NCBI GenBank assembly: GCA_003221515.1
Contig: QHSI01000104.1
Span: forward strand, 1 to 32,567
Direction: 5' to 3'
Origin: Candidatus Rokuibacteriota bacterium
Lineage (GTDB): Bacteria > Methylomirabilota > Methylomirabilia > Rokubacteriales > CSP1-6
Length of the DNA: 32,567 bases
The notes under the pieces are model-generated. The model ran no database searches, had not been told where the DNA came from, and saw only the letters and a list, made by a program, of their open reading frames with translations. The position numbers were made by a program, and so were the translations under genes. Of this stretch, positions 6,371 through 32,567 are shown piece by piece; the stretch's first letter is position 1, and every line of letters begins with the position of its first letter.

Positions 6371-8440
6371 ATGCCCTACCGGGTCGGGTTCGACGTCGGC
6401 GGAACCTTCACCGACTTCGTGCTCCAGTCGCCGTCGGGCGACCTGCTCACCGCCAAGCGGCTCACGACCTACCCCGACCCGTCCGAGGCGTGCCTGGCCG
6501 GCCTCGACGACCTGCTGGCGCAGAGCGCGGTGTCCTGGAGCGACGTGAGCCAGGCGACCCACGGCACCACGCTCGGCTCCAACATCGTCATCGAGCGCAA
6601 GGCGCGCGGGGTGGGGCTCCTGACCACGCGCGGGTTTCGCGACGTCCTGATCATCGGCCGCGAGAAGCGCTACCAGGTCTACGACCTCCAGATCGAGAAG
6701 CCGGTGCCGCTCATCCCGCGCCGCTTCATCGGTGAGGTGACCGAGCGCATCCTCGCCGACGGCACCGTGCGGACGGAGCTCGACGAGGCCGATGCGCGCC
6801 GGGCGATCCGTGCGCTGGCCGCGCGGGGCGTGACCACGCTGGCGATCTGCCTGCTGCACGCCTACCTGAATCCCGTCCACGAGCGGCGGCTCGCCGCGAT
6901 CGCGGCCGAGGTAGCGCCGCACGTCACGGTCACCCTCTCCCACGAGGTCTCGCCGACGTTTCGCGAGTACGAGCGAACCTCGACGACCGTGGTGAACGCA
7001 TACGTGATGACGGCGATCCGCGACTATCTGCGCGGGCTGGCGACGGCCATGACCGGGCGCGGCTATCGCGGCCGGCTGTTCGTCATGCAATCGTCGGGCG
7101 GCATCGCGACCGCGGAGGCGATGCAGCGCTATCCGGTCCGGATGATCGAGTCCGGCCCCGCCGCCGGGGCCCTGATGGCCGCCGCGTACGGCGAGCTGAC
7201 CGGCCACCGTGACCTCATCGCGTTCGACATGGGCGGCACCACCGCCAAGCTCGCGTTGATCGAGGCAGGGCGGCCCGCGACGACGACGGCCTTCGAGCTG
7301 CACCGGGTGAACAACGCGCCCGGCAGCGGGCTCCCCATGAACATCCAGGCGATCGACCTCGTCGAGATCGGGGCCGGTGGGGGCTCGATCGCGCGGGCCC
7401 GGCTGGGCGTCGTCGCCGTCGGGCCCGAGAGCGCGTCGTCGACGCCCGGCCCGGTCTGCTACGACCGAGGCGGCGTCGAGCCAACCGTGACCGACGCCGA
7501 CGTCGTTCTTGGCTACATCAACCCCGACTACTTCGCCGGCGGCTCGATCACGCTCCGGCCAGGCGCGGCGGCGCGTGCCATCGAGGAGCGGATCGGCAGG
7601 CCCCTCGGGCTCTCACTCGAGGACGCCGCGTGGGGCATCCATACGATCGTCAACACCAATATGGAGCTGGCCACGCGCGTGGTGTCGATCGAGCGGGGCC
7701 GCGATCCGCGCGACCTCACGCTCGTCGCTTTCGGCGGCTCGGGGCCGGTCCACGGCTGCCGCCTGGCGCAGGCTCTGGGGATCCCGCGCGTCATCCTTCC
7801 GGCGGCCGCCGGGGTCACGGCCGCGATCGGCCTGCTCGCCGCCGAGGTCAAGTTCGACGTGGCGCGGACCTACGTGCGCCGCCTCGATGGTCTGGACCCC
7901 GCGGCCGTCGACGCGATGTACGGAGAGATGGCGGCGCAGGCGACCGAGGTCGTGCGCGAATCCGCCGTCGCCGGCGAGGTGGCGCTCGTGCGCTCGGCCG
8001 ACGCGCGCTACGTCGGTCAGGGCTACGAGCTCACCGTGCCGGTGCCGGGCGGGCGACTCGACGCCGACGCGCTCGTCCGCGTGCGGGCGAGCTTCGACGA
8101 GGTCTACGCGGCGCGGTACGGGTACGCCAACCCGGCCGAGCCGGTGGAGATCGTGACGTGGAAGCTGTCGGCGGTCGGCGGCGCGCCGCGGATCGCGCTC
8201 GCCAAAGCGGCCACGCGCTCGGTGGGCGAGAGCCGCAAGGGAACCCGGCGCGCGTACTTTCCGGAGACTCGAGGCTACGTCGACACGCCCGTCTACGATC
8301 GGTACGCGCTCGCCGCGGGGACGTCGCTGAGTGGCCCGGCGATCGTGGAGGAGCGCGAGTCGACCACCGTGCTCCCGCCGGGCCTCACCGCGGCGGTCGA
8401 CGAGTACGCCAACCTGATCGCGGAGACGGGCCGTCGATGA
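6371..8440 (+). CDS. hyuA: Hydantoinase/oxoprolinase family protein, subunit A (HyuA)
   Basis: 689 residues, typical for the family. HyuA and HyuB form ATP-dependent amidohydrolases (N-methylhydantoinase, 5-oxoprolinase) and are related to the alpha/beta subunits of acetone carboxylase. The N-terminal Hydant_A_N domain begins RVGFDVGGTFTDFVL (4-18), with D8, G10, G11 and T12 in the first phosphate-binding loop. The second actin-like loop is AFDMGGTTAKLAL (284-296). Also visible are QATHGTTLGSNIVIERK near 57-75, MQSSGGIATAE near 239-249 and AFGGSGPVHGCRLAQ near 454-468. The gene follows the GntR regulator and is separated from hyuB only by a 26-codon scar. No acetone-carboxylase gamma subunit is present, which favours hydrolysis of a lactam, hydantoin or similar ring over ketone carboxylation. 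The substrate is not deducible. Confidence 0.92.
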   Translation: MPYRVGFDVGGTFTDFVLQSPSGDLLTAKRLTTYPDPSEACLAGLDDLLAQSAVSWSDVSQATHGTTLGSNIVIERKARGVGLLTTRGFRDVLIIGREKRYQVYDLQIEKPVPLIPRRFIGEVTERILADGTVRTELDEADARRAIRALAARGVTTLAICLLHAYLNPVHERRLAAIAAEVAPHVTVTLSHEVSPTFREYERTSTTVVNAYVMTAIRDYLRGLATAMTGRGYRGRLFVMQSSGGIATAEAMQRYPVRMIESGPAAGALMAAAYGELTGHRDLIAFDMGGTTAKLALIEAGRPATTTAFELHRVNNAPGSGLPMNIQAIDLVEIGAGGGSIARARLGVVAVGPESASSTPGPVCYDRGGVEPTVTDADVVLGYINPDYFAGGSITLRPGAAARAIEERIGRPLGLSLEDAAWGIHTIVNTNMELATRVVSIERGRDPRDLTLVAFGGSGPVHGCRLAQALGIPRVILPAAAGVTAAIGLLAAEVKFDVARTYVRRLDGLDPAAVDAMYGEMAAQATEVVRESAVAGEVALVRSADARYVGQGYELTVPVPGGRLDADALVRVRASFDEVYAARYGYANPAEPVEIVTWKLSAVGGAPRIALAKAATRSVGESRKGTRRAYFPETRGYVDTPVYDRYALAAGTSLSGPAIVEERESTTVLPPGLTAAVDEYANLIAETGRR

Positions 8441-8517
8441 CCGGTCGGGCCGCCAAGACCCTCGGCGTCACGTTTCCCCCGCCGCTTCTGGCGCGCGCCG
8501 ACGAGGTCGTCCAGTGA
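8437..8517 (+). pseudogene. C-terminal scar of a PF04392-type ABC substrate-binding protein
   Basis: A 26-codon frame starts with ATGA overlap at the hyuA stop and ends with GTGA overlap at the hyuB start. Its residues AAKTLGVTFPPPLLARADEV are the hallmark C-terminus of PF04392 ABC substrate-binding proteins (typically KTAKALGLTIP..LL.RADEVI). The intact relative at 27696-28676 ends LKTAKTLGLTLPASLSLRA. This looks like the last 21 codons of a deleted transporter gene, kept as a translated bridge between hyuA and hyuB. Confidence 0.7.
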
Positions 8518-10247
8518 CGCCCGCCCGCGGGCTCGATCCGGTCACGCTCGGCGTGGTCTGGGGCGCGCTGCAGTCGATCGCGGTCGAGATCGGGACGACC
8601 GTGCACAAGACCGCGTACTCCGAGCAGGCGCGCGAAGGCCAGGACTTCTCGGTGGCCGTCTTCGATCCGCAGGGACGCATGGTCGCGCAGGGGCCCTATT
8701 CGCCCGGACACATGGGCGCGATGTCGTTCGCGGTCAAGAACGCGCTCGCGGCGCATCCGGTCGAGTCGCTGCGACCCGGCGACGCAATCTTGCTAAACGA
8801 CCCGCTCCTCGGCTCCGGGCACCTTCCCGACTTCTTCATCACGCAGCCCGCGTTCCACCAGGGCGCGCTGGTGGGCTTCGCGGTGAACATCCTGCACCAC
8901 ACGGACGTGGGCGGTCAGCGGCCGGGGAGCCAGGGCGTCGAAGGGATCTTCGACTACTTCCAGGAAGGACTCCGCATCCCGCCGACAAAAGTCTGGAGGG
9001 AGTACCAGGAGCAGGACGGGATCGTCGGCATCATCGCCGCGAACACCCGCACCCCCGACAAGGTCCTCGGCGATCTGCGGGCCCAGCGGAGCGCGCTCCG
9101 CGTCGGCGAGCTGAGGCTCCAGGAGCTGGCCGCGCGCTACGGGCGCGACGTGCTGCTGGCCGCGATGGACGAGATCATCGCGCGCACCGAGGCGAGCATG
9201 CGAGCGGCGATCCGTGAGATCCCCGACGGCGTGTACCGCTTCGAGGACTTCCTGGACGACTTCGGTCCGGGCACAGATCCGCTCCGGGTCGCGGTGGCCG
9301 TGACGGTGGCCGGCGATTCGATGATCGTCGACTACGCGGGCTCGAGCCCGCAGACCGCGTCGGGGATGAACTCGTACATCAACTACACGCGCTCGTATTC
9401 GTACGCGGCGGTGAAGTGCCTCACCGACCCGCTGGGACCGATGAACGAGGGCGCGCTCCGGCCGGTCACGGTGACCGCGCCCGAGGGCTCCTTCCTCAAC
9501 CCGCGTCCGCCGGCCGGCGGCGGGCCGCGCGCGATCATCTGCTACAGGACGTTCGAGTCCGTGCTGGGCGCACTGGCGCCGGCGCTTCCCGACCGCGTCG
9601 CGGCCGCTGCCTCGCACATGGCGAACCCGACCTTCGGCGGACGGGACCGCGCGCGCAAGCGCCCGTTCGTGGCCTACGAGCTGGTGCTCTCCGGAACGGG
9701 CGCGCGGGCGACCCGGGACGGCTGCGAAGCCATGTCGTGGGCGTTCAACGCGTCGAACATCCCCGTCGAGGCCCAGGAGGCCAACCAGCCCCTGATCGTC
9801 GAGCGCTTCGAGCTGATCGGCGACTCCGCGGGCGCCGGCCGGTTCCGCGGGGGGTGCGGCATTCGCCGCGACTTGCGCTTCCTCGCCGACGAGGGCAAGC
9901 TCACGAACCTGTCCGACCGGCAGAAGTTCGCGCCGTACGGGCTCGGCGGCGGGAAGCCCGGGAAGCTCGGCCGCACCGTGATCAACCCCGGGCCGAGTGA
10001 GCGGATCGTGCACGGCAAGCAATCGCGCGAGTTCGGCTATGACGACGTCATCTCGTTCCAGCAGTCGGGCGCCGGCGGCTACGGCGATCCCCTCGAACGC
10101 GACCCACAGCGGGTCCTCGAGGACGTGCTGGACGACTACGTGTCGATCGAAGCGGCCCGCCGCGACTACGGCGTCGTGATCACCGGCGCCGCCCCCGCTC
10201 TCACCGTGGACGAACGCGCCACCCGCGAGCTCCGGAAAAGACCGTGA
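8514..10247 (+). CDS. hyuB: Hydantoinase B/oxoprolinase family protein (HyuB)
   Basis: 577 residues from a GTG at 8514 that overlaps the stop of the preceding scar. It is the partner of HyuA in ATP-dependent opening of hydantoin- or oxoproline-like rings. Family motifs are LDPVTLGVVWGALQSIAVEIG (about 6-26, read in two halves), EQAREGQDFSVAVFDPQGR (about 37-55), SPGHMGAMSFAVKNAL, LRPGDAILLNDPLLGSGHLPD (read as GDAILLNDP and GSGHLPD), FAVNILHHTDVGGQRPGS, and near the C-terminus FRGGCGIRRDLRF, QQSGAGGYGDPLERDP and DYVSIEAARRDYGVVI. The length and all central motifs are intact, so I regard it as functional. Its last 4 bases overlap the next dehydrogenase (GTGA). Confidence 0.92.
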   Translation: MTPARGLDPVTLGVVWGALQSIAVEIGTTVHKTAYSEQAREGQDFSVAVFDPQGRMVAQGPYSPGHMGAMSFAVKNALAAHPVESLRPGDAILLNDPLLGSGHLPDFFITQPAFHQGALVGFAVNILHHTDVGGQRPGSQGVEGIFDYFQEGLRIPPTKVWREYQEQDGIVGIIAANTRTPDKVLGDLRAQRSALRVGELRLQELAARYGRDVLLAAMDEIIARTEASMRAAIREIPDGVYRFEDFLDDFGPGTDPLRVAVAVTVAGDSMIVDYAGSSPQTASGMNSYINYTRSYSYAAVKCLTDPLGPMNEGALRPVTVTAPEGSFLNPRPPAGGGPRAIICYRTFESVLGALAPALPDRVAAAASHMANPTFGGRDRARKRPFVAYELVLSGTGARATRDGCEAMSWAFNASNIPVEAQEANQPLIVERFELIGDSAGAGRFRGGCGIRRDLRFLADEGKLTNLSDRQKFAPYGLGGGKPGKLGRTVINPGPSERIVHGKQSREFGYDDVISFQQSGAGGYGDPLERDPQRVLEDVLDDYVSIEAARRDYGVVITGAAPALTVDERATRELRKRP

Positions 10248-12020: not shown

Positions 12021-13186
12021 GAAAAGTGGCGCTGGTCGGGGCCGGGGTTTCACGGTTCGGCGTGCGCAAGGCGAGCTACCGCGACCTCATCTGGGAGGCG
12101 GGCAAGGCGTGCTTCGACTCGGTGCCCGCGGTGAAGCCCAAGGACGTCGAGGGGCTCGTGGTCGGCTCCGTCATGCCGGAGCGAACGGCGTTCCAGTCGC
12201 ACATCTCGTCGCTCGCCGCCGAGGCGCTGGGGATCCGGCCGAGTGCCTTGAGCGCCCGCACCGAGCACATGTGCGCGTCGGGCACCGTCGGCATCCGCTA
12301 CGCGTACGCGTTCATCGCCGCCGGCCTCGCCGACCTCGTCATGGTCCTCGGCGTCGAGAAGCTGAACCAGCCGGCCGGTGAGGAAGCGATCCTCAACATG
12401 GGCACCGGGGTCGACCGCGAGTGGGAGGCGTCGTTCGGGCTCACCGCGCCGCCGTGCTTCGCGCTGGCCGCTCAGCGCCACATGGCCCAATACGGGACCA
12501 CCGAGGAGCAGCTCGCGCGGATCGGCGTGAAGAATCACACGCACGCCTCGAAGAACCCCAACGCGCACTTCCAGAAGGGCGCGACGCTCGCCCAGGTCCT
12601 CGGCTCGCGGATGATCTCCTCGCCGCTGCGCCTCTTCATGTGCTCGCCGATCACCGACGGCGCCGCCGCCGTGCTGATCGCCTCCGAGGACCGCGCGCGC
12701 TCCCTCACCGACAAGCCCGTCTGGATCCGCGGCACGGCCCAGGCGCTGGACGGCTTTCAGCTCACGTCGCTGCACGAGGACTACGCCCACTGGCCGGCGC
12801 TCGCGCGCGCCGCGCAGTCGGCCTATCGCATGGCCGGCGTCACCGCCCGCGACGTGAACGTGGCCGAGGTTCACGACTGCTTCGCGATCGCCGAGCTGAT
12901 CGCGTACGAGGAGCTGGGGTTCTGTGGCAAGGGCGAAGGCGGGCCGTTCGCCGCGCAGGGCCGGAGCGACTACGGCGGCGACGTGGTGGTGAACCCGCGG
13001 GGTGGGCTGATCGGCTGCGGCCACCCGCTCGGGGCCACCGGTGTCGCCCAGGCCGCCGAGGTGTACGCCCAGCTTCGCGGCGAGGCCGGCGCGCGCCAGG
13101 CGCCGGATGCGGCGATCGGGCTCACGCACAACAACAGCGGCATGGGCGAGCACGTCGTCATGATCTACGGGCGCGACGCCGGGTAA
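12017..13186 (+). CDS. Thiolase-family acyl-CoA acetyltransferase (SCP2-type)
   Basis: 389 residues, start supported by AGAGGGA upstream. It is the lipid-transfer (SCP-x/archaeal) thiolase type that cleaves 3-ketoacyl-CoA with CoA, or condenses acyl-CoAs. The nucleophile is C86 in EHMCASGTVG. VAEVHDCFAIAEL (282-294) and GGLIGCGHPLGATGVAQ (329-345, H336) are the other active-site loops. The C-terminal loop is LTHNNSGMGEHVV rather than the C-x-G-x-G of biosynthetic thiolases, as is common in this subgroup. Such thiolases work with a small DUF35/OB-fold zinc protein, encoded here at 14140, two genes away. This supports a shared complex. It is probably the last step of the local beta-oxidation. 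Confidence 0.9.
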   Translation: MRKVALVGAGVSRFGVRKASYRDLIWEAGKACFDSVPAVKPKDVEGLVVGSVMPERTAFQSHISSLAAEALGIRPSALSARTEHMCASGTVGIRYAYAFIAAGLADLVMVLGVEKLNQPAGEEAILNMGTGVDREWEASFGLTAPPCFALAAQRHMAQYGTTEEQLARIGVKNHTHASKNPNAHFQKGATLAQVLGSRMISSPLRLFMCSPITDGAAAVLIASEDRARSLTDKPVWIRGTAQALDGFQLTSLHEDYAHWPALARAAQSAYRMAGVTARDVNVAEVHDCFAIAELIAYEELGFCGKGEGGPFAAQGRSDYGGDVVVNPRGGLIGCGHPLGATGVAQAAEVYAQLRGEAGARQAPDAAIGLTHNNSGMGEHVVMIYGRDAG

Positions 13187-21490: not shown

Positions 21491-22600
21491 ATGAACGTCG
21501 CCGTGCTCGGCGGGGGCAACGGCGGGTTCGCGACCGCCGCGGACCTGGCGCTGGCCGGCCACCGCGTGCGCCTCTGGAGCCGCTCGGCGTCGGCGCTGGG
21601 CCCGCTGGCCGGCGAGCCCGCGCTCACGCTCGTCGCCGAGGGGCGGCAGGGGCGCGCGCGCCTCGAGCGCGCCACGACCGAGATCGCCGTCGCCGTCGCC
21701 GGCGCCGAGGTCGTGATCGTGCCGCTTCCCGCGACGGGCCACGCGGACCTGGCCGAGCGCCTGGCGCCGCACGTGAACGAGGGGCAGACCATCCTGCTCA
21801 CGCCGGGCACGCTCGGCAGCTACGCGATGGCGCGCGACCTCGCCCGCGCCGGCGGCGCGCGCCCCTACGCGATCGCCGAGACGGGCACGCTGCCGTACCT
21901 GGCGCGCAAGACCGGCGCCGCGACCGTGTCGGCGCCGGTGCGGGCTGCGAACCTGCCCCTCGGCGTCTTCCCGGCCTCGCGCAGCGAGCCGACCGTCGCG
22001 CGGATCGCCGAGCTCTTCCCGGCCGTGCGGCCGTGCGTCGACGCGCTCGACGTCGCGCTGACGAACGCGGGCCCGGTGATCCATCCGCCGCTGGTCCTCC
22101 TGAACGCCGGCTCCATCGACGGCGGGCGCTTCGACGTTCATGCTGCGGGGACGACACCGAACGTGCGGCGACTGATCGACGCGGTCGACGCCGAGCGCGT
22201 CGCGATGCGCGAAGGCTGGGGGTATCCCGCGCCGCACTACGAGGTCGCCACGTACTACGACGAGGCGCGCGGCGCCGCGGGACTCTACGGCGCGGGCGCC
22301 AAAGCCAAGCTCGTCGCCAGCGGTCTCTGGAGCGAGGTCCTCACGCTCGAACACCGGTACGTGACCGAGGACGTGGTGCTCGGTCTCTCGCTCCTCGAGT
22401 CCGCCGGCCGCACGGCGGGCGTCGACACCCCGGCGGTCACGGGGCTGCTGATGATCTTTCGCGTCCTCCTCGGCCAGACGCTGTCCGGCCACGGTCGCGC
22501 GCTCGAGCACCTGGCACTCGGGGACTACAGCCGGCGCGAGATCCGCGCGTTCCTGCGCGAGGGCTGGGAGTCGCCCTTGTGGGGCAAGGTGCTCCGGTGA
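21491..22600 (+). CDS. NAD/NADP octopine/nopaline dehydrogenase family protein
   Basis: 369 residues. The N-terminal Rossmann domain starts MNVAVLGGGNGGFATAADLA with the unusual glycine-rich GGGNGG loop shared by opine dehydrogenases. The C-terminal Octopine_DH domain follows, with NAGPVIHPPLVLLNAGSI (about 192-209); H198 corresponds to the catalytic His of octopine and N-(1-D-carboxylethyl)-norvaline dehydrogenases. Family enzymes reversibly couple an amino acid and a 2-oxo acid by reductive amination, but many bacterial members have unknown substrates. Here it may release an amino acid or keto acid from a secondary-amine nutrient before CoA activation. There is no strong ribosome-binding site. 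It starts 13 bases after the CaiB stop. Confidence 0.85.
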   Translation: MNVAVLGGGNGGFATAADLALAGHRVRLWSRSASALGPLAGEPALTLVAEGRQGRARLERATTEIAVAVAGAEVVIVPLPATGHADLAERLAPHVNEGQTILLTPGTLGSYAMARDLARAGGARPYAIAETGTLPYLARKTGAATVSAPVRAANLPLGVFPASRSEPTVARIAELFPAVRPCVDALDVALTNAGPVIHPPLVLLNAGSIDGGRFDVHAAGTTPNVRRLIDAVDAERVAMREGWGYPAPHYEVATYYDEARGAAGLYGAGAKAKLVASGLWSEVLTLEHRYVTEDVVLGLSLLESAGRTAGVDTPAVTGLLMIFRVLLGQTLSGHGRALEHLALGDYSRREIRAFLREGWESPLWGKVLR

Positions 22601-22747
22601 GCGCGCCGGGGGCCGCTCATCTTCGGCGCCATCCTGATTGTGTCCATGCTCTTCATGCCCGGTGGTATCGCGAGCGCTCTGCGGAAGCTTGCAGTCGCCG
22701 GCGCGGCGGGCCAGCCACGAACCGGGCCGCCTACGGCGAGCCTCTGA
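22601..22747 (+). pseudogene. C-terminal remnant of a LivM-type ABC permease
   Basis: Directly after the stop of the previous gene the frame stays open for 48 codons but has no start codon. It reads GPLIFGAILIVSMLFMPGGI, then ASALRKL and a Pro/Ala-rich tail. A last membrane helix followed by F-x-P-G-G-I/L is the typical end of LivM branched-chain amino acid permeases. With the LivG stub at 23926 it brackets an intact solute-binding protein gene, implying that a former liv cassette lost its permease and ATPase genes. Confidence 0.62.
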
Positions 22748-22761
22748 CAAGGAGACGATCC

Positions 22762-23922
22762 ATGATTCGTGCCGCGCTCCTGCTCGTCCTGGCGCTGATC
22801 CCGACGGCGCTGCCGGCGTCGGCCCAGCCGCCGGGAGTCAGCGACAAGGAGATCCTGATCGGCGGCTCCAACTCGTTCTCGGGGCCGCTGGCCTTCACCG
22901 GCGAGCAGATCACCAAGTTCGGCGTCGACCTCTACTTCAAGGTGGTCAACGACGCCGGGGGGATCCACGGCCGGACGATCCGGACCATCTTCTACGACGA
23001 CGGCTACCGGCCCCAGGACGCGATCGCCAACACCAAGAAGCTCGTCGAGCAGGACAAGATCTTCGCGGTCATCATCCCGCAAGGGTCGCCGCCGGTCATG
23101 GCGACGCTGGCCTACCTGGAAGAGAACAAGGTGCCGCTCCTGTTCCCGTACCAGAGCTCGCCGGAGACGCGGGGCAAGCGCTACGTGTTCCAGGGCACGA
23201 CGGTGAGCGACCGCTCGTCGAAGATGATGATCGACTACCTCGCCGGCCAGCGGAAGCTCAAGAAGTTCGCCGCGCTCTACCAGGACGACGAGTACGGCAA
23301 GTCGTTCCTGACCGCGTTCGAGAAGGACCTCGGCCGGTTCGGCCTCAAGCTGGTCGCCGCCGAGTCCGTCAAGCGCGGCGTCACCGACGTGAGCTCGCAG
23401 ATCGCCAAGCTCCAGGCGGCCAAGCCGGAGGTCACGTTCCTGGTGCTGGTGCCCGGGCCGGGCGCGCAAGCGCTCATCGAGCGGCGGAAGATCGGCTGGA
23501 CGGACACGCTCATGGTCTCGACGGGCCCGCTGACCGACGAGCGGTACCTCGCGCTGGCCGGCGACGCGGCCGAGGGCGTCGAGGGGTTGTCGCTCTGGCC
23601 GGATCCGCTGCTGTCCGATCTGGCCGGTGTCAAGCGCTACCGTGAGCACATGCAGAAGTACTTTCCCAAGAACGCGCCGAACCAGTACTCGATCGCTGGC
23701 TACTTCGCGGCGATGCTCTTCACGGAGGGCGCCAGGCGCGCCGGCCGGAACCTGACGCGCGAGTCGCTGATCGCGGCGCTCGAGTCGATCAAAGGCTACG
23801 AGAGCGGTATCCTGCCGCCGCTCACGATCGGCGCCGACCACGAGACGCAGAAGCGAGGGTTGTGGGTCCGCGTCGAGAAGGGGCGCTTCAAGCCGCTGAC
23901 GGACTGGCTCAAGTCCGAGTAG
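22762..23922 (+). CDS. Branched-chain amino acid-type ABC solute-binding protein (LivK-like)
   Basis: 386 residues with AAGGAG 7 bases before the ATG at 22762. A Sec signal peptide (MIRAALLLVLALIPTALPASA-Q, cut near residue 21) exports it to the periplasm. The mature part is a type-I periplasmic binding fold (Peripla_BP_6): VSDKEILIGGSNSFSGPLAF, NDAGGIHGRTIRTIFYDDGY, DAIANTKKLVEQDKIFAVII, YQDDEYGKSFLTAFEKDLGR and a C-terminal lobe beginning near MVSTGPLTDERY. It would capture an amino acid, amide or aromatic/aliphatic acid for a Liv transporter. Its own permease and ATPase genes survive only as fragments on each side, so it must use another transporter, perhaps LivH/LivMG at 30342-32567. Confidence 0.9.
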   Translation: MIRAALLLVLALIPTALPASAQPPGVSDKEILIGGSNSFSGPLAFTGEQITKFGVDLYFKVVNDAGGIHGRTIRTIFYDDGYRPQDAIANTKKLVEQDKIFAVIIPQGSPPVMATLAYLEENKVPLLFPYQSSPETRGKRYVFQGTTVSDRSSKMMIDYLAGQRKLKKFAALYQDDEYGKSFLTAFEKDLGRFGLKLVAAESVKRGVTDVSSQIAKLQAAKPEVTFLVLVPGPGAQALIERRKIGWTDTLMVSTGPLTDERYLALAGDAAEGVEGLSLWPDPLLSDLAGVKRYREHMQKYFPKNAPNQYSIAGYFAAMLFTEGARRAGRNLTRESLIAALESIKGYESGILPPLTIGADHETQKRGLWVRVEKGRFKPLTDWLKSE

Positions 23923-23925
23923 CCG

Positions 23926-24033
23926 GTGCTCAGTGTCGAAGATCTCTCGATCAGCTTCGGCGGCCTCGACGCGCTGAGCGGGCTCAGCCTCCAGGTCACC
24001 GGGCTCGACCGCGTCCTCAAGACGGCGCCATGA
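23926..24033 (+). pseudogene. N-terminal stub of a LivG-type ABC ATPase
   Basis: A GTG at 23926, three bases after the binding-protein stop, opens 35 codons. MLSVEDLSISFGGLDALSGL is the standard beginning of LivG (LL.V.DLS..FGGL.AL.G.S). The reading then runs into unrelated residues and stops before any Walker A motif. Its stop overlaps the PaaK-like ATG (ATGA). This is an ATPase gene truncated by deletion, leaving the first 26 or so codons as a coupled bridge. Confidence 0.7.
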
Positions 24034-25307
24034 CGATGTGGCAACCCGAGCTCGAGACGCTGGACCGCGAGTCGCTCGAGCGGCTCGTGCTCGAGCGCAT
24101 GCGGGCGACGCTCGCGCGCGTGCTGGCCCAGCCGACCTGGGCCCGACGGTTTCACGGCGTCCGTCCCGAGGACGTCGAGCGCGTCGAGGACTGGCGGAAG
24201 CTCCCGTTCCTCACCAAGGAGGAGCTGCGCGACGCGTACCCGTACGGGCTCGCGTGCGCGCGGGACGCGGGCTACCAGCGGATCCACATGTCGAGCGGGA
24301 CGACGGGGAACCCGATCCTGAACCCGTACACGGCCGCCGACGTCGCGCAATGGGGCGAGGTGATGGCGCGCTGCTACGTCGCCGCCGGCGTCGGCCCGAG
24401 CGACGTCATCCAGATCACACCCTCGTTCGGCCTCTTCACCGGCGGCTTCGGCTTCCACTACGGCGCCGAGCGGCTCGGCGCGATGGTGATTCCGACCGGC
24501 GCCGGGCGGACGACGCTACAGCTCAAGCTCATGCGCGATCTCAAGGCGACCGTCGTCGCGGCGATCGCCACGTATCCGCTGCGGCTGCTGGAGGCGGCGC
24601 GCGAGGAACGCTTCGACCTCGCGTCGCTCTCGCTGCGCGTCGGCATCTTCGGCTCCGAGATGTGGTCCGACGAGCTCCGCGCGCGAATCGAGCGGGAGCT
24701 CCGCATCCGCACCCACGACATCATCGGCATGACGGAGACCGGCGGGCCGGGGCTCGGCATCGACTGCGCCGCGCGCGGCGGGATCCACGTCTGGGAGGAC
24801 CACTACCACGTCGAGATCGTCGATCCCGTGACCGGCGCCGTCGTGGCGGACGGCGCCGAGGGCGAGCTGGTCGTCTCGACGCTGACCCGCGAGGGGCTGC
24901 CGCTGGTGCGCTACCGCACCCACGACCTGACGCGGGTCGTCTCGCGAGCGCGTTGCGACTGCGGACGCACTGCGCTCCGGCTCGATCGCCTGCGTGGCCG
25001 CACCGACGACATGGTGATCTACAAGGGCGTGAACTTCTACCCGCGTCAGATCGAGACGGCGCTCCTGCGACAGCCCGGCGTGAGCCACGAGTACCAGATC
25101 GTGCTCGACTCCGAGGGCGGCGGCGAGCGGATGACGATCGACGTCGAAACGGAGCCCGGCTGCGATCCGGCGATCGCCGCGCGGATCCGTCGCGAGCTCG
25201 GCGACCTGCTCGCGCTGAGCCCGGAGGTCCGGCTGCGGGCGCACGGCGAGATCGAGCGGCCGCAGGGCAAGGCGGTGCGCGTGGTCGACCGCCGGCCGCG
25301 ACGGTGA
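24030..25307 (+). CDS. Phenylacetate-CoA ligase-family (PaaK-like) acyl-CoA synthetase
   Basis: 425 residues, the PaaK length. It is an ANL-superfamily adenylating enzyme that makes an acyl-AMP and then an acyl-CoA from an aromatic or small carboxylic acid. Motifs are LPFLTKEELRDAYPYGL (58-74), the ATP-binding SSGTTGNPILNPYT (88-101; PaaK has SSGTTGKP), IGMTETGGPGLG (A5 region), LVRYRTHDLTRVV, CDCGRTALRLDRLRGRTDDM (C-terminal hinge) and VIYKGVNFYPRQIE. Like many environmental homologues it departs from true PaaK in the phosphate loop (Lys to Asn), so phenylacetate is only one possibility. It overlaps both the LivG stub (ATGA) and the next CoA-transferase (GTGA). Confidence 0.87.
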   Translation: MTMWQPELETLDRESLERLVLERMRATLARVLAQPTWARRFHGVRPEDVERVEDWRKLPFLTKEELRDAYPYGLACARDAGYQRIHMSSGTTGNPILNPYTAADVAQWGEVMARCYVAAGVGPSDVIQITPSFGLFTGGFGFHYGAERLGAMVIPTGAGRTTLQLKLMRDLKATVVAAIATYPLRLLEAAREERFDLASLSLRVGIFGSEMWSDELRARIERELRIRTHDIIGMTETGGPGLGIDCAARGGIHVWEDHYHVEIVDPVTGAVVADGAEGELVVSTLTREGLPLVRYRTHDLTRVVSRARCDCGRTALRLDRLRGRTDDMVIYKGVNFYPRQIETALLRQPGVSHEYQIVLDSEGGGERMTIDVETEPGCDPAIAARIRRELGDLLALSPEVRLRAHGEIERPQGKAVRVVDRRPRR

Positions 25308-27695: not shown

Positions 27696-28676
27696 GTGAG
27701 GATCAGGGCGATCGTCGCGGCCTGCGGCGCCGCGAGCGCGGTCTTCAGCCTATCCGCGGCATCGTCGCCGGCGGAGATGCAGCAGCCGGTGAAGATGTAC
27801 CGGGTCGGGATCTTGACGGCGGCCGCAGGGTCTACGGAGAGCTTGCGCCAAAGCCTGCGCGATCTCGGCTACGTCGAAGGCCGGAACGTCATCCTCGAGA
27901 TTCGGGACACGGAGGGAAGACCCGAGCGGGCGAACGACCTCGCGCTGCAGCTGGCGCGTCTCAAGGTCGACGTCATCGTCGCGACCAATCCGGCCGCCGT
28001 ATTTGGCGCCAAGCGCGCGACGGCAACGATTCCCATCGTCATGATGCACACGCCGGACCCGGTTCAGCTGGGCCTCGTGGCCAGCCTCGCGCGTCCAGGC
28101 GGGAACATCACGGGCACGACCACCTTGAGCGTGGAGCTGAGCGTCAAGCAGCTCGAGCTCCTGAAAGAGGCGGTGCCCCGGGCTTCCCGAATGGCCCTCG
28201 TGTGGAATCCGGACAATCCATGGCATCCGCGTGTCGTCAAAGCCCTCCGGGACGAGCATCGATTGCCCGGCGTCCAGCTCCAGATTGTGGAGGCCAGACG
28301 CTCCGAGGACTTCAACGCCGCGTTCCAGGCGATGATCCGAGAACGCGCTCAAGGCGTCCTGGTCCTGGCAGACCCGATGACGTTCACGTATCGGAGTCGG
28401 CTGGCAGACCTCGCGGCCAAGCATCGTCTGCCCTTGATGGGCGGACCGCGAGGCTACACGGACGCGGGCGGCCTGATGTCCTACTGGGCGGATGAAAGCG
28501 AGCTGAGCCGACGGGCTGCCAGCTACGTCGACCGGATTCTGAAAGGCGCGAGCCCTGAAAGCCTTCCAATCGAACAACCGACCAAGTACGACCTGGTGAT
28601 CAACCTCAAGACCGCGAAGACGCTCGGGCTCACGCTTCCGGCATCGCTGTCGCTTCGCGCGACGGTGGTCGAGTGA
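27696..28676 (+). CDS. ABC transporter substrate-binding protein, PF04392 family
   Basis: 326 residues from a GTG at 27696 with GGAAGG just upstream. It has a signal peptide (MRIRAIVAACGAASAVFSLSA), then a periplasmic binding fold of the ABC_sub_bind family: YRVGILTAAAGSTESLRQSL, LRDLGYVEGRNVILEIRDTE, LKVDVIVATNPAAVFGAK, IPIVMMHTPDPVQLGLVASL, ARPGGNITGTTTLSVELSVK and the C-terminal YDLVINLKTAKTLGLTLP. The tail diverges (LSLRATVVE, where relatives have RADEV). Ligands of this family are mostly unknown; a few homologues are linked to amino acids. It has its own ribosome-binding site. A fragment of a second family member persists at 8437-8517. Confidence 0.9.
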   Translation: MRIRAIVAACGAASAVFSLSAASSPAEMQQPVKMYRVGILTAAAGSTESLRQSLRDLGYVEGRNVILEIRDTEGRPERANDLALQLARLKVDVIVATNPAAVFGAKRATATIPIVMMHTPDPVQLGLVASLARPGGNITGTTTLSVELSVKQLELLKEAVPRASRMALVWNPDNPWHPRVVKALRDEHRLPGVQLQIVEARRSEDFNAAFQAMIRERAQGVLVLADPMTFTYRSRLADLAAKHRLPLMGGPRGYTDAGGLMSYWADESELSRRAASYVDRILKGASPESLPIEQPTKYDLVINLKTAKTLGLTLPASLSLRATVVE

Positions 28677-28731
28677 GCACGGCAGTGTCGCGCGTTGCCG
28701 GGACTGAGCACACGAGCCGAGGAGACGCTTG

Positions 28732-29991
28732 ATGACGAAGCCGCGACTGACCCGCCGCACGTTTCTCGCCACGACCGCCGCTGCCGCCGGGTTCCCGCGG
28801 CCGCTCCGCGCGCAGCCGAAGACGTTCAAGATCGGCGTCGTCCATCCGGTGACGGGTCCGCTCGCCGAGCCCGGTCAGGCCTGCCGGCTCGGGGCGCAGA
28901 TGGCCGCCGACGCGATCAACGCGGCCGGCGGCATCAAGTCGAAGGGCGGCCTCAAGCTCGAGCTGATCGTCGGCGACACGCAGACCAAGCCCGAGAACGG
29001 CCGCGTCGAGGCCGAGCGCGTCGTGAACCAGGGCGCCCAGATGCTGATGGGCTCGTTCGACTCCGGCTCCACGAGCGCGATGGTGTCGGTCGCCCAGCAG
29101 AAGCGCGTGCCCTTCCTCATCGACATCGCGGCGGCGGATCCCATCACCGCCAACGTCGCGAAGTCGGTCAAGGACGGTGAGCAGAAGGTGCAGTACGTCT
29201 ACCGCAACTTCCCGACCGGCTCGAGCTTCGGCCGCAAGGCCGTCCAGTACTTCACGGACATCTTCAAGGAAGCCAACGTGTCGCCGAAGCGCGTCGTGCT
29301 GATGTACTGCAACGACCTCTTCGGCCAGAACCAGGCGCGCGGCTTCCAGGCGGCCCACAAGGCCGCCAACCCGTCGTGGGAGATCGTCGAGGTCATCCCG
29401 TGGCCGGAGCCGCCGTCCGATCTCTCCACCGAGGTGTCGCGCGCGAAGGCCGCCAAGCCCGACGTGATCGCGCCGATCACCCGCCCAGCTTCCGCGCTCT
29501 TGCTGCTGCCGGAGATCGTGAAGCAGCGCATCGAGATGCTGGGCATCGTCGGGCCCGGCGGCCCCGGCCTCTACGAGGCGGGCCAGCTGGCCCAGCTCAA
29601 GCAGAACCTCGAGTACGTGATGACGAGCGTGCCGTGGCCCAACTTCAAAAATCCAAAAACCGGCGCGGCGGCGGAGGAGTTCCGGAAGCGCTCGAGCGGC
29701 AAGACGTTCGACACGAACTCGGGCTACTCCTACGACGGCATGTTCGTGATCGCCGACATCCTCGAGCGCGCATCGAGCCTCGATGATCCCGACACGATCG
29801 TCGACGCGATGAAGAAGACCAACTACTCCGGCGGCCTCATGAACTACGGCGGTCCGATCGTCTTCAACGAGGTCGGCGATAATGCCAACGCCATTCCGAC
29901 GATGATCCAGATCCTCTCGCAAAAACCTGTCGCCGTGTGGCCTCGAGAAGCGGCGGTTCAGAAGTTCATCTTCCCTCGTCCTAAGGCTTAG
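28732..29991 (+). CDS. Branched-chain amino acid-type ABC solute-binding protein, Tat signal
   Basis: 419 residues from the ATG at 28732, with GAGGAG upstream. The N-terminus MTKPRLTRRTFLATTAAAAG has the twin-arginine motif TRRTFL, then a short hydrophobic core and AQ as the likely cut site, so it is exported folded. The mature Peripla_BP_6 domain has FKIGVVHPVTGPLAEPGQAC, AADAINAAGGIKSKGGLKLE, VGDTQTKPENGRVEAERVVN, MGSFDSGSTSAMVSVAQQKR, MYCNDLFGQNQARGF and NSGYSYDGMFVIADIL. It heads the intact transporter set (LivH, LivM-LivG). A strong inverted repeat follows its stop, which may set its expression above the membrane genes. The ligand is unknown. Confidence 0.92.
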   Translation: MTKPRLTRRTFLATTAAAAGFPRPLRAQPKTFKIGVVHPVTGPLAEPGQACRLGAQMAADAINAAGGIKSKGGLKLELIVGDTQTKPENGRVEAERVVNQGAQMLMGSFDSGSTSAMVSVAQQKRVPFLIDIAAADPITANVAKSVKDGEQKVQYVYRNFPTGSSFGRKAVQYFTDIFKEANVSPKRVVLMYCNDLFGQNQARGFQAAHKAANPSWEIVEVIPWPEPPSDLSTEVSRAKAAKPDVIAPITRPASALLLLPEIVKQRIEMLGIVGPGGPGLYEAGQLAQLKQNLEYVMTSVPWPNFKNPKTGAAAEEFRKRSSGKTFDTNSGYSYDGMFVIADILERASSLDDPDTIVDAMKKTNYSGGLMNYGGPIVFNEVGDNANAIPTMIQILSQKPVAVWPREAAVQKFIFPRPKA

Positions 29992-30341
29992 GGCGGCCGG
30001 GACGGCGGGCGCGCGGGGGTGGGAGGGGGCGACCGGACCACGCGGCACGCGTGCGCTGCCCCGCGGCGGCTGGGCTCCATCCGGGCGCGCGGCGCCCGCC
30101 GCTCGCTTCACGGGAACGGGTCCTGTCGCCCCCTCCCACCCCCGCCCGCTCGCCGCCCCGGGTCGCGCTTGGCGTCGATTCGACGTCCTCCACTGCTCGG
30201 TCGCCCACACGACCACTCGCTCCGGTTTGTACACGCCCGACCTGCCCGTTGTCCGTCCATACGCGTTGGCATGTTGAGGTTTGCGTGGAGCTGTCGAGAG
30301 CCCGGGCGCTCATACCGTTGTTGTCCTCGACTGGGTGCTCC
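29992..30341 (+). other. 350-bp intergenic region between binding protein and LivH
   Basis: No convincing gene. The first half (to about 30160) is the large G-rich inverted repeat annotated separately; its loop contains the 10-bp palindrome GCACGCGTGC (30045-30054). The second half (30160-30341) is less GC-rich and may carry a leader for livH. TTGTAC and TTGGCA hexamers occur there, but no matching -10 is present at proper spacing. Open frames across it join livH without a clear start and have no recognisable product. Confidence 0.6.
29999..30159. repeat. Long G/C-run inverted repeat with G-quadruplex-capable arms
   Basis: A perfect 21-bp arm (30013-30033, containing GGGGGTGGGAGGGGGCGAC) is repeated in reverse complement at 30125-30145, with a 91-nt spacer. 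Weaker matching extends each arm to about 40 bases. Arm 1 on the plus strand and arm 2 on the minus strand each contain four G-runs separated by short loops (GGGGG-T-GGG-A-GGGGG plus a preceding GGG), so either DNA strand could form a G-quadruplex. As RNA the arms would give a large stable hairpin 3' of the binding-protein gene. Confidence 0.8.
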
Positions 30342-31210
30342 GTGGATCTGACGCTGGTAGGGCAGGGGTTGATCAGCGGGGTGCTGTTCGGCGGGGTGTA
30401 TAGCCTGATGGCGGTGGGGCTCACGCTGATCTTCGGCGTGATGCGCGTCGTGAATTTCGCCCACGGCGACATGATGGTCTGGGGCATGTACTTGGCGTAC
30501 CTGCTCGCGACGCACGCCGGGGTCGATCCGTACGCGGGGTTCGCCCTCTGCGCGGCCGCGCTGTTCGTGCTCGGTCTCCTGATCCAGCGCGGGCTCGTCG
30601 ACCGTATCGTGGACGCCCCCCACGAGATGCAGATCCTCCTGATGCTCGGCGTCGCGCTGGTGCTCGAGAACGTCGCGCTGATGGTGTTCGGGCCGGAGCC
30701 GACGCGCGTCACGTCGTCGCTGGCGACCGCGACGCTCTGGCTCGGGCCGGTGTTCGTGGACGTGAACCGGCTCGTCGCGTTCGCGGTGGCGGTCGCGCTG
30801 ACCCTCGCCCTGTCGACGTTCCTGTTCCGGACCGAGCTGGGCCGGACCATCCGGGCCGCGGCCGACAACACCTACGGCGCGCTGGTGATCGGCACCGACG
30901 TGCGGCGCGTCTACGCGGTCGCGTTCGGCATCGGCGCCGCCTGCGTGGGCGCCGCCGGCGCTCTGGTCTCCTCGATCCTGCCGTTCCAGCCGCCGACCGG
31001 ACTCTCGCTGTCGGTGACCTCGTTCAACGTCGTGATCATCGGCGGCATGGGCAGCCTGGCCGGCGCGTTCGTCGGCGGACTGCTGGTGTCGGTCGCCGAG
31101 TCGCTGGGCGCCGTGTTCCTCAAGCCGTCGCTGAAGGAGCTGTTCAGCTTCACGCTGCTGATCGTGATCCTCCTGTTCCGGCCGGCGGGGCTCTTCGGCA
31201 AGCGCGCGTC

Positions 31211-31214
<4 letters not shown>
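30342..31214 (+). CDS. livH: Branched-chain amino acid ABC transporter permease LivH
   Basis: 290 residues from a GTG at 30342, chosen because the LivH family starts just before LVGQGLISGVLFGGVYSLMA (5-24). The frame is open further upstream but its translation there is not LivH-like, and no strong ribosome-binding site is visible. There are about eight membrane helices. Family motifs are VGLTLIFGVMRVVNFAHGDM (25-44), the cytoplasmic coupling segment ELGRTIRAAADNTYGALVIG, RRVYAVAFGIGAACVGAAGA and FNVVIIGGMGSLAGAFVGGL, and it ends FRPAGLFGKRAS. It forms the inner-membrane channel with LivM. Its final bases overlap the next gene (ATGA). Confidence 0.9.

Positions 31215-32567
<1,353 letters not shown>

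Follow-up and report, generated by a model that had tools for sequence, protein, structure and literature searches.

Stripped liv cassettes in a Candidatus Rokuibacteriota relative and its family: a binding protein kept after its permease genes were lost

Introduction

How does the gene of a substrate-binding protein (SBP) come to stand without a permease beside it, and what is left for the protein to do? The question is raised by a locus in which an intact SBP gene lies between what appear to be broken ends of liv transporter genes. The window, i.e., the whole stretch of DNA analysed (32,567 nt), is contig C55:1-32567 of the draft genome G000 (5.1 Mb, 191 contigs, 95% complete). The organism is a soil bacterium, a Candidatus Rokuibacteriota relative; among its genus mates, those with named records are MAGs of this group. 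The features of the locus are as follows.

21491..22600, + strand: octopine/nopaline-dehydrogenase-family gene, left flank of the slot (Pfam Octopine_DH, E 1.2e-24); the same neighbour is found in the relative G002 and in most other relatives
22597..22609, + strand: start of a V4R gene, 13 nt left, its GTG overlapping the dehydrogenase stop; identical to the V4R start of G002
22611..22761, + strand: 3′ remnant of livM (126/151 nt identical to the 3′ end of G002 livM; tblastn 82% over LivM 277-326)
22749..22754, + strand: AAGGAG, a Shine-Dalgarno-like site within the livM remnant, presumably that of the SBP gene
22762..23922, + strand: intact SBP gene, 386 aa, apparent signal peptide, Peripla_BP_6 (Pfam E 1.5e-68; orthologs 70-90%; AlphaFold2 mean pLDDT 88.7)
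23926..24000, + strand: 5′ remnant of livG, codons 1-25, stopping short of Walker A (96% to G002 LivG 1-25)
24001..24033, + strand: probable 3′ end of livF, continuing the reading frame of the livG head; stop and ligase start overlap as ATGA (supported by 13 exact nt, GGGCTCGACCGCG, and by its place ahead of the ligase)
24030..25307, + strand: PaaK-like CoA ligase gene, right flank of the slot (NCBIfam PaaK E 8e-116, under the equivalog cut-off; conserved neighbour)
28729..32567, + strand: separate downstream liv system with its own SBP, livH, and livM (PF13458 and PF02653 matches)

The Remnants and the Lost Genes

The frame before the SBP gene (22601-22744) comprises 48 codons without a start, ARRGPLIFGAILIVSMLFMPGGIASALRK..., and ends with a stop at 22745-22747. 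The first-pass annotation had taken it for the end of a LivM-like protein, and comparison with G002 bears this out, the matching segment being residues 277-326 of the 326 of G002 LivM (tblastn, E<=1e-5). On the other side of the SBP gene, a frame opened by the GTG at 23926 begins as LivG and breaks off ahead of Walker A, as had been noticed, although 25 codons fit the comparison (tblastn) better than the 26 counted earlier. These are followed by ten codons, GLDRVLKTAP, and a stop at 24031-24033. Judged by sequence, the ten codons look like the C-terminus of LivF, which makes them its probable remnant; the evidence is weaker here (score 14, 23/27 nt, with the 13 exact nt and the position), and a livF-derived frame of another genome, G008, likewise overlaps its ligase. 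Pfam searches with each remnant alone gave no match, the remnants being too short; the proof of their origin lies in the syntenic comparison.

The intact ancestral arrangement, which the first-pass annotation proposed to seek in syntenic clusters, is present in G002 and in 30 other family members. G002, the nearest relative and a member of the same genus, has an SBP 90% identical to that of G000 and carries the full cassette at the same site, in the order CoA transferase, octopine-dehydrogenase-like gene, V4R, livH, livM, SBP, livG, livF, and CoA ligase, with neighbours that are also kept in G000. In the alignment of the first joint, G000 22400-22609 corresponds to G002 7451-7660 and 22611-22761 to G002 9914-10064, so that 2253 bp (G002 7661-9913: V4R, livH, and most of livM) are absent from G000. 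At the second joint, homology to livG extends up to about 24000 and positions 24001-24029 resemble the last livF codons (G002 12695-12721), with about 1.39 kb gone (most of livG and livF); the gap between livF and the ligase holds 0.5 kb extra in G002, which is also missing in G003 and G006. A CCGG is common to both sides of the first joint in G002, and little or nothing is shared at the second.

The lost genes are gone from G000 and have not been relocated: searches of this draft genome, 95% complete, gave no livM at E<=1e-90 (the best match has 3.8e-55 and 41%) and likewise found neither livF (E<=1e-85) nor V4R (E<=1e-3). The slot is thus a complete livH-livM-SBP-livG-livF cassette, set within a carboxylic-acid/CoA gene cluster, that has been eroded by two separate deletions. 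The earlier idea of a livM-SBP-livG cassette worn away on both sides with the SBP kept was right in kind and too modest in extent, V4R, livH, and livF having been lost too. The frame of the V4R start is open and runs in frame into the SBP gene, and the livG/livF remnant forms an open frame of 35 codons; each of the two may help translation to continue along the operon.

The Retained Binding Protein

Peripla_BP_6 spans residues 31-374 of the SBP (PF13458), i.e., essentially the whole mature protein, as in a HAAT-type (branched-chain amino acid/amide) SBP, and the nearest PF02653 match is 6489 bp away, so the gene is an orphan with neither permease nor ATPase genes adjoining it. The structural model has the Type I periplasmic binding protein fold, with 4kv7 (Z 45.2, rmsd 1.9, 351 aligned) and 3lop (Z 44.0, rmsd 2.1, 347 aligned) as matches.

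Branch values of omega were obtained by triplets with codon bootstrap, two values denoting two outgroups. They were 0.32 (0.15-0.75) or 0.18 (0.08-0.45) for the SBP of G000, 0.34 (0.20-0.59) or 0.25 (0.16-0.40) for G001, 0.38 (0.19-1.20) or 0.22 (0.10-0.48) for G008, 0.48 (0.26-1.01) for G060, and 0.48 (0.33-0.68) for G068, the last four being further orphans described below. SBPs in cassettes gave 0.16 and 0.25 (G002), 0.05 to 0.07 (G007), 0.17 (G018), 0.25 and 0.28 (G032), 0.24 (G076), and 0.42 (0.23-1.01) (G004). Constraint on orphan SBPs thus tends to be weaker than in cassettes, yet it is present. The alignments contain the larger piece of the G001 SBP (residues 45-386) and, for G060, the 3′ piece (167-386), with one copy per genome except in the comparison with five distant outgroup SBPs.

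Losses across the Family

Five anchors served to survey 57 genomes of the family. The SBP was found in 35 of these genomes at E<=1e-150 and additionally in G060, where two contigs each carry a part of it; livM in 30 at E<=1e-90 and additionally in G067, whose cassette is interrupted by a contig end; and livF in 32 at E<=1e-85, a chimera in G008 included. A cassette is present in 31/57 genomes and the SBP alone in five (G000, G001, G008, G060, and G068), while livM without the SBP occurs in 0/57, all 30 livM genomes having the SBP.

The same stripping is seen in these relatives with other breakpoints. In G008 the joints differ: LivH 1-64 runs into the LivM tail, and the start of livG is fused to livF; the first of these fusions (L030 6048-6368) is an open frame of 106 codons with a start and a stop. 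In G001, dehydrogenase, SBP, and ligase are directly consecutive with no remnant, the SBP lying on two contigs that overlap by 144 nt with 2 mismatches. In G060 the SBP directly follows the dehydrogenase, again with no remnant, and a DUF2652 gene stands ahead of the ligase. Nothing but the SBP separates dehydrogenase and ligase in G068, where no remnant is left and the SBP frame is intact at 59-60% identity.

In a tree of the flanks (33 of 40 mapped genomes), G000 is sister to intact G002, G060 is nested within its genus among intact members (100%), G068 is far off, and G008 and G001 are sisters (96%); in the SBP tree, the neighbour of G008 is intact G004 (97%). The count from these trees is four losses with a shared event in G001 and G008, and five otherwise. 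The loss in G000 looks recent, so that its own SBP tells little; the three orphans free of remnants (G001, G060, and G068) have SBP branches of 0.18, 0.19, and 0.62 against flank branches of 0.045, 0.049, and 0.21.

Four of the 57 genomes (G009, G015, G020, and G078) have the flanks with no SBP between them, G009 being judged from reading frames only, and in G015 V4R alone remains in the slot. Either the SBP is not always retained or the cassette was never present there. A glucose/sorbosone dehydrogenase gene stands ahead of the CoA ligase in G078 (L138 6092-7297; PF07995, E 5.2e-80) and G020 (L140 324-1436; E 4.4e-81), where others have the liv cassette, which marks the slot as modular.

Several intact cassettes show variations of their own. 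V4R is broken internally in G005 (L029 7053-7334) and missing in G003 (L026) and G004 (L031), all with intact liv cassettes; a tie between V4R loss and cassette loss was considered and rejected on account of the broken V4R beside the intact cassette of G005. Tandem duplicate SBPs occur in the otherwise intact cassettes of G032 (L035 8169-10496) and G031 (L023 5348-7682), the coordinates being those of the reverse strand of the locus. In G017 (L040 5567-10343) the order is livH-livM-livG-livF-SBP, with the SBP not between livM and livG.

Parallel Changes at the C-Lobe Rim

Across the 31 cassette SBPs, 123 positions are invariant. The orphans have changed 9 of the 114 covered in G001, 5 of 70 in G060, 24 of 122 in G068, 4 of 123 in G000, and 1 of 123 in G008; in a leave-one-out control, the corresponding figure for a cassette SBP was 0 to 6 out of 123 to 129 sites that are invariant in all the others. 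Some changes recur in the three older orphans, G001, G060, and G068. At site 205, Arg is replaced by Pro in all three; at site 211, Ser is replaced by Arg, Arg, and Tyr, and at site 235, Ala by Val, Val, and Thr, each of the three sites being unchanged in 31/31 cassette SBPs. Five distant outgroup SBPs (32-34% identical) keep KRG..D.S over 204-211, but not A235. Triplets of cassette SBPs from three genera have at most one such site in common (7/3563), and a rate-matched P for the parallel sites is 5.9e-5 in a test made after the sites had been seen. G000 has two such sites in common with G001 (212 and 242) and two with G068 (242 and 365), while cassette pairs across genera have none in common in 417/431 cases and one in 14/431.

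In the secondary structure of the model (strand 197-203, helix 211-219, strand 224-228, and helix 231-243), sites 205, 211, and 235 fall at strand ends and helix starts, positions which, by the usual geometry of the fold, we take to be the cleft-side rim of the C lobe. Going by the model, the three sites would therefore lie at one rim of this lobe. This rim may be the edge on which LivHM docks; it could instead serve the ligand or stability. A sequence search of the PDB with LivM returned no solved relative. In the alignment with 4n0q, the residue at 205 is Pro, so that R205P could represent a move towards a widespread form and not damage.

Partner Permease and Ligand

According to the first-pass annotation, the SBP might feed the LivH/LivM-LivG system 6 kb downstream. 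No special support was found for this pairing: that system, whose livG and livF run past the window end (matches at 340 and 1046 of L045), has its own SBP, 21% identical to the orphan over 237 residues. G005, with its intact cassette, likewise has such a system further downstream (livG match at 18821 of L029; livM match at G005:C42:68867). Moreover, the genome of G000 has 69 BPD_transp_2 (PF02653) matches, which makes the downstream system one candidate among many. It has 41 Peripla_BP_6 matches; a permease match lies within 4 kb of 30 of these, and the other 11, several of them at contig ends, have none so near. The other SBPs of G000 were considered as models for the changed rim; none of 32 rows (31 of 33 loci and the downstream SBP) has KRG plus Ser at 211, so they single out no partner. 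Between an acyl-CoA dehydrogenase gene and the downstream liv system, the window also holds an ABC_sub_bind gene (27696-28676; PF04392, E 2.7e-41), which encodes another SBP of a different family with no obvious permease of its own kind.

The position of the slot between the dehydrogenase and the PaaK-like CoA ligase suggests a carboxylic acid as the ligand. Passages of PMC3223731 describe SBPs of this family from R. palustris that bind aromatic and fatty acids.

Weighing the Explanations

The favoured reading, which we hold to be reasonably probable, is that of a stripped cassette whose SBP is still exported, binds its old ligand, and serves another HAAT-type permease, its rim being free to change later. 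Two deletions removed V4R-livH-livM and livG-livF apart from the remnants, and the SBP gene was left complete and collinear with the genes on either side. Its product would still be exported and bind the old ligand, which another permease of the HAAT type encoded in the genome would then take over, so that the cell would keep ligand capture in the gene cluster and save a dedicated channel. Soon after the loss the SBP would be almost unchanged; later, the C-lobe rim that once fitted the lost LivHM could vary freely, with the same sites affected in separate lineages. Since orphan SBPs serving distant permeases are established elsewhere, a shared permease is the most likely arrangement here, and on this reading the stripped SBPs remain under purifying selection and probably serve another permease.

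We think it rather unlikely that the cassette is simply decaying, with the SBP as the last gene to go and with no present function. The long SBP branches of the orphans without remnants agree with decay, as does the absence of the SBP from the slot in the four genomes named above; the omega intervals of G060 and G008 reach 1 (1.01 and 1.20), and relaxation would fit a protein on its way out. Against this, the frame of G068 is intact despite its divergence, omega is clearly below 1 in G001 and G068, and the changes are concentrated on the same few sites; moreover, any order of loss would be expected under decay, whereas livM never outlives the SBP in the 57 genomes. The weaker constraint in one cassette SBP, that of G004, counts against the favoured reading. 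There is a smaller chance that the SBP has become a part of a sensor or signalling system (a ligand carrier for a chemoreceptor or kinase, or an AmiC-like regulator) with no role in transport: it has its fold in common with the amide sensor AmiC (1pea: Z 39.4, rmsd 2.3, 346 aligned), and SBP-activated sensor kinases exist, as parts of PMC11113362 report, but no sensor gene was noted beside the SBP in the orphan loci when named reference genes were mapped there, and the apparent signal peptide is retained.

Transfer of a single orphan-type SBP from lineage to lineage, in place of convergence, is a scarcely likely source of the parallel sites. The topology tests that bear on this used 31 of the 36 SBPs (G013, G023, G061, G075, and G079 were omitted). 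Quick-search AU tests leave a clade of G001 and G060 standing (p 0.40 on protein and 0.80 on codon data); in these, some constrained trees outscored the free one, and the full search on third codon positions is preferred. The latter rejects this clade (AU p 0.013) and groups G060 with its genus mates (97%). When residues 195-245 are masked, G001 falls in its own genus (100%) and G060 joins G059 and G011 (90%), and a clade of all three orphans is rejected on codon data (p 0.0165, quick search). Hardly any weight falls on misassembly or strain collapse, by which the full cassette would be present and the junctions artefacts. The draft is in 191 contigs, and the contigs of G001 break within the SBP with mismatches in their overlap; on the other hand, livM, livF, and V4R were not found in the largely complete genome at the thresholds given above, the remnants have diverged from G002, and separate genomes show other junctions and independent losses.

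One broader proposal is offered as possible and no more than tentative: the stripping of transporters would be a recurrent route from dedicated SBPs to free adaptors in these bacteria. The channel would be given up and the SBP retained, after which the KRGxxDVS rim of the C lobe (205 and 211, with 235 beside it), as the docking edge for its own LivHM, would be remodelled in parallel for docking on a different permease of the genome.

Known Systems and Implications

In E. coli, the LivJ/LivK-LivHMGF system has two SBPs, with the same fold and of the same family as the SBP of G000, that share one permease; there, the permease is present, whereas here only remnants of a lost cassette accompany the SBP.

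Closer in layout is BraC3 of Rhizobium leguminosarum, which, according to passages of PMC2978685, is an orphan SBP encoded away from the Bra permease (LivHMGF-type) that it feeds. As here, a HAAT-type SBP is encoded apart from a cassette permease; unlike here, the partner was proven by transport assays, while the permease of the G000 protein would be one of many candidates, and in G000 the ancestral cassette and the deletions are visible. Orphan SBPs are common in general, with genes away from their permeases as in the present case, examples in parts of PMC3223731 and PMC7731109 being a putrescine SBP of R. palustris and zinc SBPs. What differs here is that the intact, recently stripped, and long stripped states can all be seen at the same slot within one ortholog group. 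Orphan SBPs are thus known, while such a graded series is new to us; a literature search at the level of listings returned nothing on stripped liv cassettes in Rokubacteria, and four transporter terms are absent from PMC5103831.

The origin of orphan SBPs is rarely seen. Here, several lineages document it at a single slot, which ranges from the complete cassette through a recent loss with remnants to a loss of long standing. From the parallel changes, a handful of residues emerge as candidates for the grip of HAAT-type SBPs on LivHM. If this proves true, docking surfaces could be mapped by using partner loss as a natural experiment, and an SBP gene found alone would not deserve to be written off as a leftover.
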